A stretch of 64,000 bases of DNA from Mesonia aquimarina (GTDB lineage: Bacteria > Bacteroidota > Bacteroidia > Flavobacteriales > Flavobacteriaceae). Shown piece by piece: positions 17,648 through 24,088 of the stretch (position 1 is the stretch's first letter; each line of letters opens with the position of its first letter). Under the pieces are notes generated by a model, which ran no database searches, was not told the origin of the DNA, and saw only the letters and a program-made list of their open reading frames with translations. The position numbers were made by a program, and so were the translations under genes. The DNA lies in the NCBI RefSeq assembly GCF_003667275.1, contig NZ_RCNV01000001.1, forward strand, positions 558,001-622,000, given 5' to 3'.

Positions 17648-20600
17648 ATGAAAATTCGCATTTTGGCTTGCATCTGTTGCTTGCTAACCACACAACTTAT
17701 CTTTTCACAACAAAAATTTAACCAATGGTGGAATGAAGTAGAACAATTAGAAGTTAATGGAAAATCTTTTAGCGCTTATGAAAAGGCTGAAAAAATACTC
17801 GAAAAAGCTGAACGAAAGGAAAATGAACTTCAATTTATAAAGGCTTTTTTATACCAGCAAAAATTTAATCTCATATTGAAAAGCGATAGTCAACAGCTGG
17901 TTTTCAATAATTTTGAGCAGACCATTAAAGAAAAAGCATTTCCTACAAAGCAGATCTTAGCTTCTTATTTCGCAGAAAGTCTTTGGAAATACTACCAGCG
18001 GAATTACTACAAAATCAGAAGAAGAACTGAAACCAGCAACAACATTAAGGATTTTAAAACCTGGGATCAAGCAAAATTTCTATCTGAAATTCATCATTAT
18101 TACGAATTATCGTTTCAACATGAAGAAAAATTGTTCGCACTTCCGTTAAGTGATTTTACCGATATTTTACAATATGGAGAAAATTATAATCGCTACCAAA
18201 GCACCTTATTAGATCTACTTGGGAAGCGATATTTAGCGTTTTTAAATTATTCGCAACACCACACAAAAAATCATTATTTTATAAAAAATGAAGCGCATTT
18301 TTTATTACCGAAAAAATTTATAAGCTATTCTTTTGCCGAAGAAGAATTAAAATCGCCGGAAGCTAAACTTCTACAGCTTTACCAGAAATTAATTAGAAAT
18401 CACCTACAAAATAATGATGAATATTCAGCGGTAATGTTAAGTTTAGAACGGCTAAAATTTGTAAAAAACAATGGTGCTTTTGAAGAGAAAAAGCAACTTT
18501 ATCTACAGGCTTTGAAAGAACATTTAAAGAAGTTTACCACAGCCGAAAGTCAGAATTTAATTCAATATCACATCGCGCATTTTTATTTTTCTGAAAGTGA
18601 TAAAGAAAAGCATCCCGATTATTTTCAAAAAAGCTTGGCTCATCTAAACAAAATTTCGAAAAATAGCAAAAGTCCGTTTGTTTGGGAAAATGCGCTACAG
18701 CTAAAAAAAGTGATTTTAATGCCCGAATATAAACTGATTTCTGAACGTGAAATTATTCCAAATGAAGCTTCCCGCATGCTAATTTCCTTTAGAAATACAG
18801 ATACATTACAACTGCAAATTTTTCGGGTTCCCAGAGAAATAAAAGAAGATTTAGGCTGGAATAAGGAATATACACAAACTGAAAAAGATTCAATTTTACG
18901 AAAGTATTTACTTCAACAAAAGTCAGTAAAAACACAAAAAAAATCCTTGCCAAAAATCACAAATCATTATAGCTATACTACCGAATTTTTTATTGAAGGG
19001 CTTCCCGTTGGGAATTACATTTTTTGCGTAACAAACCAAAAGAAGCTTTCTGAAACCAAAAATTTTGACTACGGTTTTGTACAATCTACCAACTTACAAA
19101 TGGCGCGATTTGATTTTAATGATCGGCAAAAAATCTATGTTACGCACCGAAAAACAGGAAAATCTTTAGAAAATGTAATAGTAAAAAAAGGGTTTTCATA
19201 TCAAAATTATACCGACAAAAATGGAATGGCTTGGATAAATGGAAAGAATGATTATTACTACGAAGACATTATTTTAATTTCTGAAAACGACACGCTAGAA
19301 AAGCAAATTCGGTTTCGCGAAAAAAGAACACGGAGTAAACCCGAAGCTGAAATTAATTCTTATTTATTTACCGATAGAAGTATTTATAGACCCGGACAAA
19401 AAGTTTACGTAAAAGGAATTTTAGCTTTTCAACACGATGAGGAAAAGAAGGTTGTAGCTAATGAAAATGTGACTATAAAATTATACGATATTAATAGAAA
19501 TGCAATTGATAGTTTACAACTAAAAACAAATGAATTTGGCTCTGTTCACGGAGAATTCACCTTACCAAAAAATGGATTAACGGGTCGTTTCCGAATAGAA
19601 ATTGATGAAAATTTCCAAAAAAATTCACCATATAAAAATATTGACTTTGATAACGAATATCGCTATTTTCAAGTGGAAGAATACAAGCGTCCGCGTTTTG
19701 AAGTTACTTTCAAAAAAATAGACTCTACGTATGTTTTACAAGATTCTATTCAACTTACCGGAAATGCAGAAGCTTATTTTGGCGGGAATTTAACCGATGC
19801 CGAAGTTGTTTACACCGTTACACGATCGTTAAAATATAACCGACCTTTTCAACGAAGCACATTTTATCAACCTGTTGAAGAAAAAATTATCTTAAGCGAT
19901 AGTACCAAAACCGACGCTTCAGGAAATTTTAAAGTGAATTTTAAAGCGATTCCCGACCTTAAAATAGCTGAAAAATTCAAACCCATTTTCACCTATACTA
20001 TTGAAGCTGATGTTACCGATGTTAATGGTGAAACGCGATCTGCTGAAATGCAAATTCGGGTAGGTTATCATACAAAAGTTGTCAATCTCGAAATTAAACC
20101 TTCGCCGGAAAATAAAAAATTATTACGTATAAAAGCAACCGATCTTAACTTGCGGAAAAAAGAAAGCCAAGGAATTTTAAAAATCTATCATTATCAAATG
20201 CCCGAACAAGCTTTTTTAAAACGCGCTTGGGATGTTCCTGAAATTCAACAAATCGATAAGGAAAAATTCTTAACGCACTTTCCGTATACGGCTTACGATT
20301 CTTTAGATATAGAAAAAAATTGGCCTAAAAAACTAATCGACAGCTTACAAATAGACACTAAAAAACAAGCTGAATTTTCGATAGATTCTTTAGTAGAAAA
20401 ATCCGGTAAATATCAATTCACTTATCAAGACCAATCAGCCTTGATTGAAGAAGCTACCTTAACAAATTTTCATCAATCTGGCGAAAAGTTGCTCTTGCCA
20501 GAACAGCGCATTTTGCAAATTAGTGACAGTGTTGTAACAAAAGAAAAAACAGGAAAAATCAGGCTTACTTTTTCTACGGAATTACCACAACTGCACATTT

Positions 20601-23600
20601 TCTTAGAATTTAATGATAAAGAAAAAATTAGTAATCATCAACTTAAATTAAAAAAAGGAGAAAAAATCACGAAAGAATTTTTAGTTCCACTTCATAAAAA
20701 ATCGGTTAGTTACCGCGTAAGTTATGGAAAAAACAATCGGTTTTATTCAGACCAAAAAAGCATTAATTTACCGCAAACCGATACAAAAGAATCGAAAATT
20801 GAATTTGAAGTCATTACTTTTCGGGATAAGCTTTCACCGGGCAAAGAAGAAACTTGGCAATTAAAAATTAAAGATCAAGACGAAAATCCTGTAGATGCCG
20901 AACTTTTAGCCAGTATGTACGATGCTTCCTTAGATCAATTTACCTCACATTCTTGGCCCGAGAAAATAACACAAGATTTTTATAGATATAATTTTTCTGA
21001 AAGTTTACTTAGACCGATACATTATAGTGACTATAACCGAAACACTTTTCAAAAAACATATAATTTTTATAATAATAATTTTAATGTCAATTTATCATCA
21101 AGTTTTACTTCATTCAAACAATTTGGATATGATTTTGAAAATTATACAGATGCTCAAAATGAACATGTTGAACTTTTAATTAAATCAAAAAACACTAAAG
21201 GTTATATTTCGGGAATCGTAAAAGATGATTCTGGTTTACCGCTCCCAGGAGTTTATGTATTAAAAAATAAAGCTGTAACTACTCAAGCTAATTTTGATGG
21301 ATATTTTTCTACCAAAGTTGAAAAAGGAGATAGTCTGACTTTTAGCTATCCAGGTTTTTATAATCATTCTATACTAATAAAAAACCAAGATTATTTAAAA
21401 ATTAAAATGAGAGAGAATCTGTATAGTAGCGCAGAAAACGTTATAACTTCTTACGGTTCTACTGTAAAGAGAAGAGAAACTTTATCATACGGTTACATGC
21501 AATTAAATGCCGGTGAAGAAATTGACTTTAGAAAAACAACTCAAGCAGCAACTAGTCTTGAAACAGAAAAAATAGTTCTTCGAGGTGTTGGTTCAATCAA
21601 CGGAAATGCAGAACCGCTTTTTATAGTGGATGGGGTTCCTGTTTCAGAAGAAAATTTTAGAGCCTTAAACCAAAATGATTTAGCAGAAGTTCAAGTTTTA
21701 AAAGATGCTGAAGCTACTGCGCTGTATGGAAATAAAGGCGCAAACGGTGTGATTGTCATCACCACCAAAAAAGCAGCAAAAGAAGAATTAGCACAAATTG
21801 AAACAAGAACCAATTTAAACGAAACTGCATTTTTTCTTCCGCAATTACGTACTGATAAAAAAGGGGGAGTCAGTTTTACATTTACCAGTCCGGAAGCTTT
21901 AACCCGTTGGAAATTTCAAGCGTTTGCGCACAACAAAAAACTGCAAAGCGCTTCTATAAACCTCAACACGGTGACGCAAAAAACCTTAAATATTATTCCG
22001 AATTTTCCACGTTTTTTTCGTTCAAAAGACACGGTTTATATTTCAGCGAAAGTCAATAATTTAGCAGAAAAAAAATTAGACGGAATTATTCAGCTTGAAT
22101 TCACTGATGAACTTAGTCAAGAGAAAGTAAAACTCGGTTTAGATGAATCACTTAAAAATTTCAGCATCGATGCAAAAGGAAACAAGCAAATTACCTGGAA
22201 GCTTTTTATTCCTGAACGATTAAACGCGGTTCGATACCGCATTGTCGCCAAAGCCGGAAATTTCTCTGATGGCGAAGAAAATGTTTTGCCGGTACTTACC
22301 AATCGATCCTTCATCACCGAAAGTTTACCAGTTTGGGTAAATCCGAAGGAAGAAAAATCGATTACTTTTGACGCTTTAAAAAATAACACTTCGTCTAGCT
22401 TATCGCATCATCGCTTGGTATTTGAATACACATCAAACCCAGCGTGGACAGTTATAAAATCGCTTCCGTATTTAATTGAATTTCCGCATGAATGTGCCGA
22501 ACAAACCATGGCGCGTTTTTATGCAAACCATTTAGCACAAGTTATCGCTGAAAAAAACCCGTCGATAAAAAAGCAACTCAACACTTGGAAAAATAATAAA
22601 ATTTTAGACAGCGATTTAGCCAAAAATCAAGCTTTAAAATCGGTTGATTTAAGTGAAACACCGTGGCTAAAAACTGCACAAACCCAAGAAGAACAATTAC
22701 ATAATTTAGCAACGCTAGTAAGCGAGGAAAACTCCAAGCAGAAAAAAGAAGAAAGCTTACAAAAATTAAAGGGAATGCAATTAAGTTCAGGCGCTTTTCC
22801 TTGGTTTAAAGGTGGAAGAGAAAATGTATTTATTTCGGTTTATATTTTAGCGACTATGGAACATTTACAAAAAATGGATTCCTCACTAAAAAATCTTGAG
22901 GAATTTCAATCGATAAAAAATAAACTAATTGAATTTGTCGATAATCATTATGAAATTTACAATGTAAATGCCAAAGAACGAAACGATCTTGATACACGTT
23001 TTCTTCATTATTTATACACAAGAAGTTTTGATGAGAATAAACCAACCCAGATTAAAAATTTAGCGGCTGGCTTGTTAGATAAATTTAATAAAAAATGGGT
23101 TACTTGGTCGTTAGAACAGAAATTACAATTCGCTTTAATTGCCTCACGTTTTCAAGAGAAAAAACTAGCCGATAAAATTCTAATCAGTTTAGAAGAAAAC
23201 GCTGTGATTAATTCAGAATTTGGCATGTATTGGAAAGCTAACAAAAAATCTTGGAGCTCCTCTCCTATTGCCACGCAAGCTTTAGCGATTGAAGCTTTTG
23301 CTGAAATAAACAATGACGAAGAAAAAGTAGAAAAATTAAAAATTTGGCTTTTACGCCAAAAGAAAACGCAAGCCTGGAAATCTACTAAAGCGACAACACA
23401 AGCTATTTATGCGTTACTTACTCGCGGAAAAAATTGGCTTGCAGATACTAGTTCAAAAACAAGCATTAAGCTTGGCGAAGAACAATTCGATTTAGATAAA
23501 ACAACGGGAAATGCCGGTTATTTACAAGTGAGCTATCAACCGGAAGAAATTACCCAACAAAAAGCTAATTTGGAAATTGAGAATAAAAGTGATTCTCCAC

Positions 23601-24088
23601 AATACGGCGCTTATCATTGGCAATATTTTGAAGATACCGACAAAATAAAATCAAGCAGTCAAGCTTCACTACACATCACAAAAAAACTCTTAAAAATAGA
23701 AAAAACCAACAGTGGCGAAAAAGGAAAACCTATTGAAAAAACAAGCTTAAATGTAGGCGATTTAGTTCGCGTGCAGTTAACAATTGAAGCGAAAGAAAGT
23801 TTCAGTTTTATGCATTTAAAAGATTTACGCGCTGCCGCTTTAGAACCTGTTGATGTAATTTCTACCTACAAATGGCAAGAAGGTTTAGGCTATTACCAAA
23901 GCACAAAAGATATGGCGACACATTTTTTCTTTGATGAACTCCCAAAAGGAACTTATGTGTTTAGTTATGATTTACGTGTCAATAATTCCGGGAATTTCAC
24001 CAAAGGATTTGCGGAACTTGAAAACATGTACGCGCCTGAATTTTCTGCCCGTTCTAAAAGTGGTCGTTTAGAGATTAAAAACGAATAA
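17648..24088 (+). CDS. Alpha-2-macroglobulin family protein with embedded carboxypeptidase-regulatory and SusC-type plug module
   Basis: A 2146-residue exported protein (signal peptide about 1-20, ending IFSQ; no lipobox at the cleavage site). The MG2 domain starts near residue 571 (YLFTDRSIYRPGQKVYVKG), with MG3-like sequence near 690. The A2M core begins near 1395 (FTSPEALTRWKFQAF). The thioester domain has an intact CAEQ motif, C1616 to Q1619. Bacterial macroglobulins trap or protect against proteases in the periplasm. Between about 1185 and 1380 sits an unrelated module. It starts with a carboxypeptidase-D regulatory-like strand set (YISGIVKDDSGLPLPGVYV) and continues with a SusC-like plug (LFIVDGVPV, VQVLKDAEATALYG, ANGVIVITT). 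No outer membrane barrel follows. The module sits where animal macroglobulins carry the bait region. No pbpC partner is nearby. Confidence 0.9.
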   Translation: MKIRILACICCLLTTQLIFSQQKFNQWWNEVEQLEVNGKSFSAYEKAEKILEKAERKENELQFIKAFLYQQKFNLILKSDSQQLVFNNFEQTIKEKAFPTKQILASYFAESLWKYYQRNYYKIRRRTETSNNIKDFKTWDQAKFLSEIHHYYELSFQHEEKLFALPLSDFTDILQYGENYNRYQSTLLDLLGKRYLAFLNYSQHHTKNHYFIKNEAHFLLPKKFISYSFAEEELKSPEAKLLQLYQKLIRNHLQNNDEYSAVMLSLERLKFVKNNGAFEEKKQLYLQALKEHLKKFTTAESQNLIQYHIAHFYFSESDKEKHPDYFQKSLAHLNKISKNSKSPFVWENALQLKKVILMPEYKLISEREIIPNEASRMLISFRNTDTLQLQIFRVPREIKEDLGWNKEYTQTEKDSILRKYLLQQKSVKTQKKSLPKITNHYSYTTEFFIEGLPVGNYIFCVTNQKKLSETKNFDYGFVQSTNLQMARFDFNDRQKIYVTHRKTGKSLENVIVKKGFSYQNYTDKNGMAWINGKNDYYYEDIILISENDTLEKQIRFREKRTRSKPEAEINSYLFTDRSIYRPGQKVYVKGILAFQHDEEKKVVANENVTIKLYDINRNAIDSLQLKTNEFGSVHGEFTLPKNGLTGRFRIEIDENFQKNSPYKNIDFDNEYRYFQVEEYKRPRFEVTFKKIDSTYVLQDSIQLTGNAEAYFGGNLTDAEVVYTVTRSLKYNRPFQRSTFYQPVEEKIILSDSTKTDASGNFKVNFKAIPDLKIAEKFKPIFTYTIEADVTDVNGETRSAEMQIRVGYHTKVVNLEIKPSPENKKLLRIKATDLNLRKKESQGILKIYHYQMPEQAFLKRAWDVPEIQQIDKEKFLTHFPYTAYDSLDIEKNWPKKLIDSLQIDTKKQAEFSIDSLVEKSGKYQFTYQDQSALIEEATLTNFHQSGEKLLLPEQRILQISDSVVTKEKTGKIRLTFSTELPQLHIFLEFNDKEKISNHQLKLKKGEKITKEFLVPLHKKSVSYRVSYGKNNRFYSDQKSINLPQTDTKESKIEFEVITFRDKLSPGKEETWQLKIKDQDENPVDAELLASMYDASLDQFTSHSWPEKITQDFYRYNFSESLLRPIHYSDYNRNTFQKTYNFYNNNFNVNLSSSFTSFKQFGYDFENYTDAQNEHVELLIKSKNTKGYISGIVKDDSGLPLPGVYVLKNKAVTTQANFDGYFSTKVEKGDSLTFSYPGFYNHSILIKNQDYLKIKMRENLYSSAENVITSYGSTVKRRETLSYGYMQLNAGEEIDFRKTTQAATSLETEKIVLRGVGSINGNAEPLFIVDGVPVSEENFRALNQNDLAEVQVLKDAEATALYGNKGANGVIVITTKKAAKEELAQIETRTNLNETAFFLPQLRTDKKGGVSFTFTSPEALTRWKFQAFAHNKKLQSASINLNTVTQKTLNIIPNFPRFFRSKDTVYISAKVNNLAEKKLDGIIQLEFTDELSQEKVKLGLDESLKNFSIDAKGNKQITWKLFIPERLNAVRYRIVAKAGNFSDGEENVLPVLTNRSFITESLPVWVNPKEEKSITFDALKNNTSSSLSHHRLVFEYTSNPAWTVIKSLPYLIEFPHECAEQTMARFYANHLAQVIAEKNPSIKKQLNTWKNNKILDSDLAKNQALKSVDLSETPWLKTAQTQEEQLHNLATLVSEENSKQKKEESLQKLKGMQLSSGAFPWFKGGRENVFISVYILATMEHLQKMDSSLKNLEEFQSIKNKLIEFVDNHYEIYNVNAKERNDLDTRFLHYLYTRSFDENKPTQIKNLAAGLLDKFNKKWVTWSLEQKLQFALIASRFQEKKLADKILISLEENAVINSEFGMYWKANKKSWSSSPIATQALAIEAFAEINNDEEKVEKLKIWLLRQKKTQAWKSTKATTQAIYALLTRGKNWLADTSSKTSIKLGEEQFDLDKTTGNAGYLQVSYQPEEITQQKANLEIENKSDSPQYGAYHWQYFEDTDKIKSSSQASLHITKKLLKIEKTNSGEKGKPIEKTSLNVGDLVRVQLTIEAKESFSFMHLKDLRAAALEPVDVISTYKWQEGLGYYQSTKDMATHFFFDELPKGTYVFSYDLRVNNSGNFTKGFAELENMYAPEFSARSKSGRLEIKNE

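Follow-up and report, generated by a model that had tools for sequence, protein, structure and literature searches.

A thioester macroglobulin of Mesonia aquimarina with SusC transporter sequence in its bait, a candidate decoy that tends to be renewed from a resident SusC

A 64,000-nucleotide stretch of the Mesonia aquimarina genome (contig NZ_RCNV01000001.1, positions 558,001 to 622,000; below, the window) encodes a thioester macroglobulin whose bait holds a module derived from the N-terminal part of a SusC transporter. Our data show that SusC sequence is present in half of the baits surveyed in related macroglobulins, has been replaced even among close species, and has a tendency to be like the SusC that its own genome encodes next to fusA. 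An earlier note on the window, made from its letters alone, had recognized the module but lacked these relatives; what is new is that the resident fusA-linked SusC tends to be the source of the module, which is renewed by copying. There is good support for such copying from the resident SusC as a family-wide tendency. We propose that a bait repeatedly copied from this housekeeping SusC serves as an integrated decoy of a self protein, a best guess to which we assign a probability of about one half. Genomes and loci are referred to by G and L numbers, G000 being the window genome, and published work is cited by PMC number.

In the window protein, Pfam finds MG2, A2M and bMG10 domains in the order expected for thioester alpha-2-macroglobulins (A2Ms). 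Between the macroglobulin (MG)-domain half and the A2M domain, the Pfam Plug family matches residues 1302-1368 (32.0 bits, cut-off 23.9), and two families covering the SusC N-terminal extension (NTE) match below their cut-offs: CarboxypepD_reg at 1187-1241 (28.8 bits, cut-off 32.3) and CarbopepD_reg_2 at 1187-1261 (27.8 bits, cut-off 32.2). The NCBIfam SusC/RagA profile TIGR04056 matches residues 1187-1390 with an E-value of 2.7e-47; its 161.7 bits, far below the full-length cut-off of 368.25, come from positions 3-219 of a 981-position profile, and neither Pfam nor NCBIfam reports a SusC beta-barrel in the protein. The earlier note had described a SusC-type module between the MG half and the A2M domain, an intact CAEQ thioester (C1616) and no barrel, and all three hold. 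Alignments show that the N-terminal half of the plug is shortened and that the Ton box is degraded (ENVITS versus DEVVVTG of Bt1763); within the genus, the Ton box is consensus-like in 7 of 10 genomes and degraded in the window protein, L235 and L236. The Pfam bait region domain A2M_BRD has no match in the window protein even at E≤1; the assignment of a bait region comes from the relative L061, where A2M_BRD matches residues 970-1086, and from the models and post-bait alignment described below.

The genome sets searched for relatives comprised 198 genomes from the phylum, 395 from the class, 299 from the family and 16 from the genus; the tallies of these searches count any match, SusCs and distant A2Ms included, and are not module frequencies. 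The retrieved loci gave 231 anchored baits, of which 186 were unique and 168 remained as a non-redundant set, all from high-scoring loci with both anchors (MYDxSL-like and RxxLxETAFFxP-like), which excludes diverged relatives such as L074, L085 and L086. Scanning these with profiles built from 40 fusA-linked SusC N termini (NTE and/or Ton box plus plug) at E≤1e-3 detected SusC-derived sequence in 84 of the 168: NTE and Ton box-plug in 45, Ton box-plug only in 28 and NTE only in 11. Shuffled, reversed and downstream control stretches each gave 0/168, ruling out chance resemblance to SusC. A module was found in 33 of 72 baits from named records, and the named relatives are mostly Flavobacteriaceae. 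A separate alignment (A2) was selected for modules, and its 54/62 SusC matches are no frequency. Among proteins with enough sequence, CxEQ is kept in 82/84 that bear a module and in 78/83 others; the module-bearing L026 and L132 read SAEQ instead and have probably lost the thioester.

Eleven of the 16 genomes sampled in the genus, the window genome included, match our post-bait profile strongly, and five match it weakly or not at all. The module is present in 10/10 of those with a readable bait, including the window, with the L233 copy lacking the NTE; in the eleventh (G850) the macroglobulin is split into two frames. Because relatives in the genus share the same build, an assembly join of two genes, which the earlier note had named as a possible artefact, is ruled out.

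We compared each module with the fusA-linked SusCs of all genomes. Outside the genus, 33 of 36 genomes have a SusC frame in the stretch retrieved around fusA and 32 are comparable, G719, G002 and G091 (no SusC frame) and G553 (no bait) being left out; the main matrix uses all profile-positive frames at the locus. Modules match the fusA-linked SusC of their own genome with z = 9.2 in these 32 genomes (0/20000 permutations) and z = 8.7 with one genome per genus (26 genomes, 0/20000). The result persists when the longest SusC at the locus is chosen (29 genomes, z about 7.1, 0/20000) and under a stricter SusC pattern that drops 13 of the 36 genomes (23 genomes, z = 6.5, 0/20000). Within the window genus, z is 4.7 for 10 genomes (0/20000) and 4.3 for the 9 left after removal of a near-duplicate (1/20000). 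The own SusC is among the top three for 14 of the 32 genomes, where 3 are expected. In the genus table, it is the best match in G000, G839, G846 and G599 (50, 62, 74 and 36% identity). For G844, G838, G848 and G812, the best match is another species' SusC of their own type (59, 73, 74 and 97% identical to their own SusC), and for G841 and G842 it is a SusC type that they now lack.

Searches within single genomes also point to the fusA-linked SusC. The best SusC for the window module (G000:C3:29403-30020, 48-50% identity) adjoins a SusD and fusA, and scores 428 against 280 for the next of the 22 Plug proteins in that genome. The G846 module scores 307 bits with its fusA-linked SusC and 92 with the next own SusC, the G839 module 260 and 94, and the G781 module 136 plus 101 in two pieces and 90. 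The fusA-linked SusC is thus clearly the best own SusC in G000, G846, G839 and G781, and narrowly so in G734. When single modules were run against several genomes, it ranked top in 9/9 with the G839 module, 8/9 with the G846 module and 6/7 with the G734 module. The macroglobulin lies 19.2-20.9 kb from the fusA-linked SusC locus on the same contig in the seven congeners measured, and in 22 of the 36 genomes macroglobulin and fusA share a contig at a distance of 20-52 kb. Physical nearness as the sole cause of the match is weakened, because the match also appears in G781, G000 and G846, with the loci on different contigs, and in G833, where they are 1.27 Mb apart.

Phylogenetic analysis supports repeated capture. 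In a tree of 82 sequences (26 modules, 40 fusA-linked SusCs and 16 other SusCs, with the longest SusC chosen per locus), the modules require 7 changes, at least 5 of them on well supported branches. Modules of G781 and G557 group with the fusA-linked SusCs of the same two genomes (support 100/100), the G846 module with the SusCs of G846, G848 and G697 (99/92), and modules of G839 and G844 with the SusCs of G839 and G844 (92/95). The tree indicates that the modules are not one clade and that SusC sequence was taken into baits more than once.

Close pairs show replacement. The congeners L233 and L234 share 95% nucleotide identity on both bait flanks and 65% in the Ton box and plug, and only one of the two has an NTE. 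Synonymous divergence (dS) between L216 and L219 is 0.11 in the A2M domain and 0.29 in the module, and it is likewise higher in the module for L258/L259 and L056/L129. The Ton box region of the G846 module and its own SusC share a tract of 41 identical residues (113/123 nucleotides, nonsynonymous divergence (dN) 0, dS 0.42), with 48-78% nucleotide identity in 20-codon windows outside it. A single ancient capture followed by decay alone is ruled out by the tree and by these replaced modules. Other pairs have kept their modules (L235/L236, omega, or dN/dS, 0.24; L094/L099, omega 0.12), indicating that copying and keeping of modules alternate. An omega was obtained for 15 of the 17 close pairs with modules identical in at least 50% of residues: 14 lie at 0.12-0.28 and one at 0.60. 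Kept modules are by this measure under purifying selection, with the thioester motif staying along.

Alignments and structure models both place the module at the bait position, as the earlier note had proposed. Our post-bait profile covers 270 residues from R1387. Its position 1 aligns to RTNFQESWLW of Anopheles TEP1 (chain residue 605), and positions 16 and 17 pair with human A2M residue 746 and residue 956 of the E. coli macroglobulin ECAM, respectively, so that R1387 corresponds to residue 731 or so of human A2M and to about 940 of ECAM. In the human protein the bait spans residues 690-728 (PMC8267569), and in cleaved ECAM bait residues 923-942 are disordered (PMC4498604). By these alignments, the SusC-derived module occupies the bait position, with R1387 just behind the human and ECAM baits. 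In our own reading, R1387 and L1390 would pair with human A2M R732 and F735, which lie in the segment threading the central channel (PMC9352918).

Two AlphaFold2 models (mean predicted local distance difference test (pLDDT) 70.0 and 73.3; predicted template modelling score (pTM) 0.41 and 0.44) have confident strands at 1052-1092, followed by an unfolded stretch that begins at about 1100-1108 and ends at about 1154-1164. The NTE is confident (pLDDT about 90); behind it come a second unfolded stretch at about 1261-1307, a plug remnant that is fairly confident to 1382, and then four strands at 1399-1443. Residues 1100-1165 are probably unfolded, judging from these models. The larger model (pTM only 0.44) has three strands ahead of the module and four behind, which would fit one MG domain split by the bait. 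In Foldseek, the top match of the NTE model is 9hfj, the NTE of BT3090 (TM-score on target 0.87, root-mean-square deviation 1.2); the models as a whole match the macroglobulin family only weakly by TM-score.

Table 1. Features of the macroglobulin gene, in window coordinates.
Feature	Residues	Position	Strand	Basis or remark
Thioester macroglobulin gene	2146 aa	17648..24088	+	single open frame
N terminus, signal-peptide-like, no lipobox				judged by eye only
MG2 domain	571-658	19358..19621	+	Pfam PF01835, E 4.7e-20
N-terminal part of bait segment	1100-1165	20945..21142	+	pLDDT mostly <50, two AlphaFold2 models
SusC NTE	1187-1261	21206..21430	+	CarbopepD_reg_2 (below cut-off), TIGR04056, model, Foldseek
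Ton box equivalent (SAENVITSYG)	1261-1270	21428..21457	+	alignment to own SusC, LDEVVITSYG
Shortened SusC plug	1302-1376	21551..21775	+	Pfam PF07715, TIGR04057
SusC signature	1344-1374	21677-21769	+	TIGR04057, above its cut-off
Post-bait segment (alpha'NT equivalent, RTNLNETAFF from R1387) and A2M domain	A2M 1393-1482	21806..22093	+	PF00207; alignment to TEP1, human A2M, ECAM
Thioester motif HECAEQ, Cys = C1616	1614-1619	22487..22504	+	
C-terminal bMG10 domain	2015-2131	23690..24040	+	PF17973, E 1.6e-29

The macroglobulin is probably periplasmic. By eye, no PBP1C gene was seen beside it, and its neighbours resemble Mpl, RadC and ObgE. A second, ECAM-like macroglobulin of the window genome (L088) has no NTE or plug match, and was judged by eye to have a lipobox and a PBP1C-like neighbour; profile comparison with such ECAM-like paralogues was too weak and was not used. 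Adjacent macroglobulin copies with differing open-frame lengths stand on one contig in L248, L249, L250 and L251 (three in L251). Two distant A2M-like proteins, L085:722-6565 (- strand) and L086:355-6417 (- strand), carry an NTE and Plug directly ahead of the A2M domain, with no MG2 or bait-domain match above cut-off, and are possibly an independent case.

The SusC beside fusA (L087:7016-10096; L299-L309) occupies a fixed locus whose alleles differ strongly from one congener to another: N-terminal identity is mostly 42-59%, rising to 73-74% in two pairs and 97% for G812/G599. The SusD partners at the locus also differ between congeners, as judged by eye. A subtilase (S8 family) with a type IX secretion tail (L087:1842-3815, - strand) adjoins the fusA-linked SusC-SusD pair, and 8 of the 11 genomes examined in the genus have one there, with 3 recognized by Pfam and 5 by motif or build; the eight include three near-identical species. 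None was seen in 10 other genomes within the next 9-11 kb (one of these stretches being truncated), a null that rests on no frame of that size being present, the motif alone having missed the Pfam-positive G000. A general link with this secreted subtilase is not borne out; in our survey, the association is confined to the genus.

How might a copied bait act? The rewritten bait carries the N-terminal, periplasm-facing part of SusC (NTE, Ton box and plug). A protease with access to the periplasm that cleaves this part of the housekeeping SusC would also cleave its likeness in the bait. This cut would free the alpha'NT segment, upon which the macroglobulin would collapse and tie the protease to its thioester. 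A plug without its barrel would offer a loosely folded, easily cut stretch, and copying would renew the decoy as the SusC allele changes. In human A2M, a bait swapped for a neutral linker leaves a protein that can fold and respond as before, and a protease becomes a target once its site is put into the bait (PMC8267569). Since bait sequence there sets which protease is trapped, a SusC-copied bait would register proteases that cleave SusC on its periplasmic side. Cleavage-triggered protease trapping by the window protein is a prediction from its sequence. The fuller scenario, in which repeated gene conversion or recapture from the fusA-linked SusC rewrites the bait and a protease attacking that transporter from the periplasm springs the trap, we place somewhat below even odds. 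The earlier note had suggested a protease-sensing or partner-binding arm; sensing is the most economical reading, and the partner-binding half is not supported.

Several observations weigh against a decoy kept in step with the resident SusC. The permutations treat genomes as exchangeable, and kinship may inflate z. The own fusA-linked SusC is the raw best match in only 7 of 32 genomes (G088 tied; 1 expected), many genomes match other species' SusCs better, and the lowest own ranks are 31st (G170), 27th (G068), 21st (G118), 16th (G174) and 15th (G549). In G734 the best own match is a second SusC at the locus, some 10 kb away from fusA, with an unlinked SusC nearly equal (219 versus 226 bits). 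The best own SusC for the G848 module is not the fusA-linked one, and with that module the fusA-linked SusC ranks top in only 6 of 9 genomes. On the tree, the window module sits with those of G812 and G599 on a long branch apart from its own SusC, its place unsure. Constraint on the module is 1.5 to 15 times looser than on the A2M domain. Finally, no SusC sequence could be detected in 84 of the 168 baits, so the trap can do without it. The missing modules, the looser constraint and the better foreign matches call for caution on the decoy.

The module could instead be a passenger: if the bait tolerates almost any insert, SusC N termini, which rank among the most repeated sequences in such genomes, may recombine in and decay, serving as cleavable filler only. 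Bait length (111-342 aa) with stages from full module to remnants, and the half of baits that lack a module, are consistent with this. So are three short baits (L147, L149 and L212) with permuted SusC pieces and a GKVAGV-type block ahead of the Ton box, and the spacing between macroglobulin and fusA could favour conversion. We nonetheless consider a pure passenger unlikely: omega falls within 0.12-0.28 for 14 of the 15 close pairs that kept their modules, the match within a genome often singles out one SusC by a wide margin, and it persists across contigs and over 1.27 Mb. It is because the match leans to one resident SusC, and because kept modules are constrained, that we favour a decoy over filler.

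We regard as improbable a role in which the bait's Ton box binds TonB and so holds the trap in place beneath SusC transporters or gates it mechanically. The Ton box of Bt1763 is required for growth on levan (PMC7782687), and a strict Ton box pattern is enriched in baits, occurring in 64/168 (200 shuffles gave no more than 3) and in 10 of the 84 without a SusC profile match (500 shuffles gave no more than 2). The latter test was rerun on this profile-based group, a first group with neither NTE nor signature having been made by pattern and holding some NTEs. The best hint is coverage: among 85 profile-matched baits, Ton box columns are covered in 69, the NTE in 56 and the plug end in 47. However, fragments from the NTE side and from the plug side alike will readily span a Ton box in mid-module, the strict pattern is missing from 104 of the 168 baits, and degraded Ton boxes occur in the window protein, L235 and L236. 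Because of its degraded Ton box, TonB contact is not indicated for the window protein. Docking to a partner, with the plug entering a SusC barrel in trans or binding SusD and tethering the macroglobulin to the outer membrane, is very unlikely: allele matching, which would keep plug and barrel compatible, would fit it, but the plug is shortened in the window protein, goes undetected in the 11 NTE-only baits and has an N-terminal half that the models leave without a confident fold, and no finding points to the docking of a barrel or SusD-like protein that the earlier note had put forward as a possibility.

A literature search of open-licence papers gave nothing on SusC sequence in a macroglobulin bait and no published link between SusC and fusA. 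A term search of PMC6298971 and PMC6794258 found no macroglobulin and no elongation factor in either. Leads on isolated plugs as unfolded proteins, and on the NTE-like BamP of the Bacteroidota BAM complex (PMC12611786), gave nothing. A copied bait could help to tell what bacterial macroglobulins protect against: a bait copied from a particular transporter would name the protected target and narrow the hunt for the attacking protease. If the decoy is real, it would be a bacterial inhibitor that mimics a protein of its own cell and keeps the likeness up to date by gene conversion. It would also parallel in nature the engineered forms of human A2M, in which bait sequence decides which proteases are trapped.

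With human A2M and ECAM (YfhM), the window macroglobulin shares MG domains, a bait before the alpha'NT segment, an A2M domain, CxEQ and a C-terminal MG domain. The human bait is 39 residues long with no motif known to matter (PMC8267569), whereas the window bait holds a folded NTE and a SusC plug remnant. Unlike the ECAM-type lipoprotein paired with PBP1C, the window protein has, by eye, neither lipobox nor PBP1C neighbour. Anopheles TEP1 is likewise a thioester protein reshaped by gene conversion (PMC2576239); there, exchange is with other TEP genes, whereas here the donor is an unrelated transporter. The SusC/RagA transporters Bt1763, BT3090 and RagA share the NTE fold, Ton box position, plug and SusC signature with the window module, which differs in having a shortened plug and no barrel and in sitting inside a macroglobulin. 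Integrated decoys of plant nucleotide-binding leucine-rich repeat (NLR) receptors are the case of a defence protein that bears the likeness of a target. By a putative functional analogy, the macroglobulin bait may be another, with the differences that its reader would be a protease trap and that the likeness would be renewed by copying.

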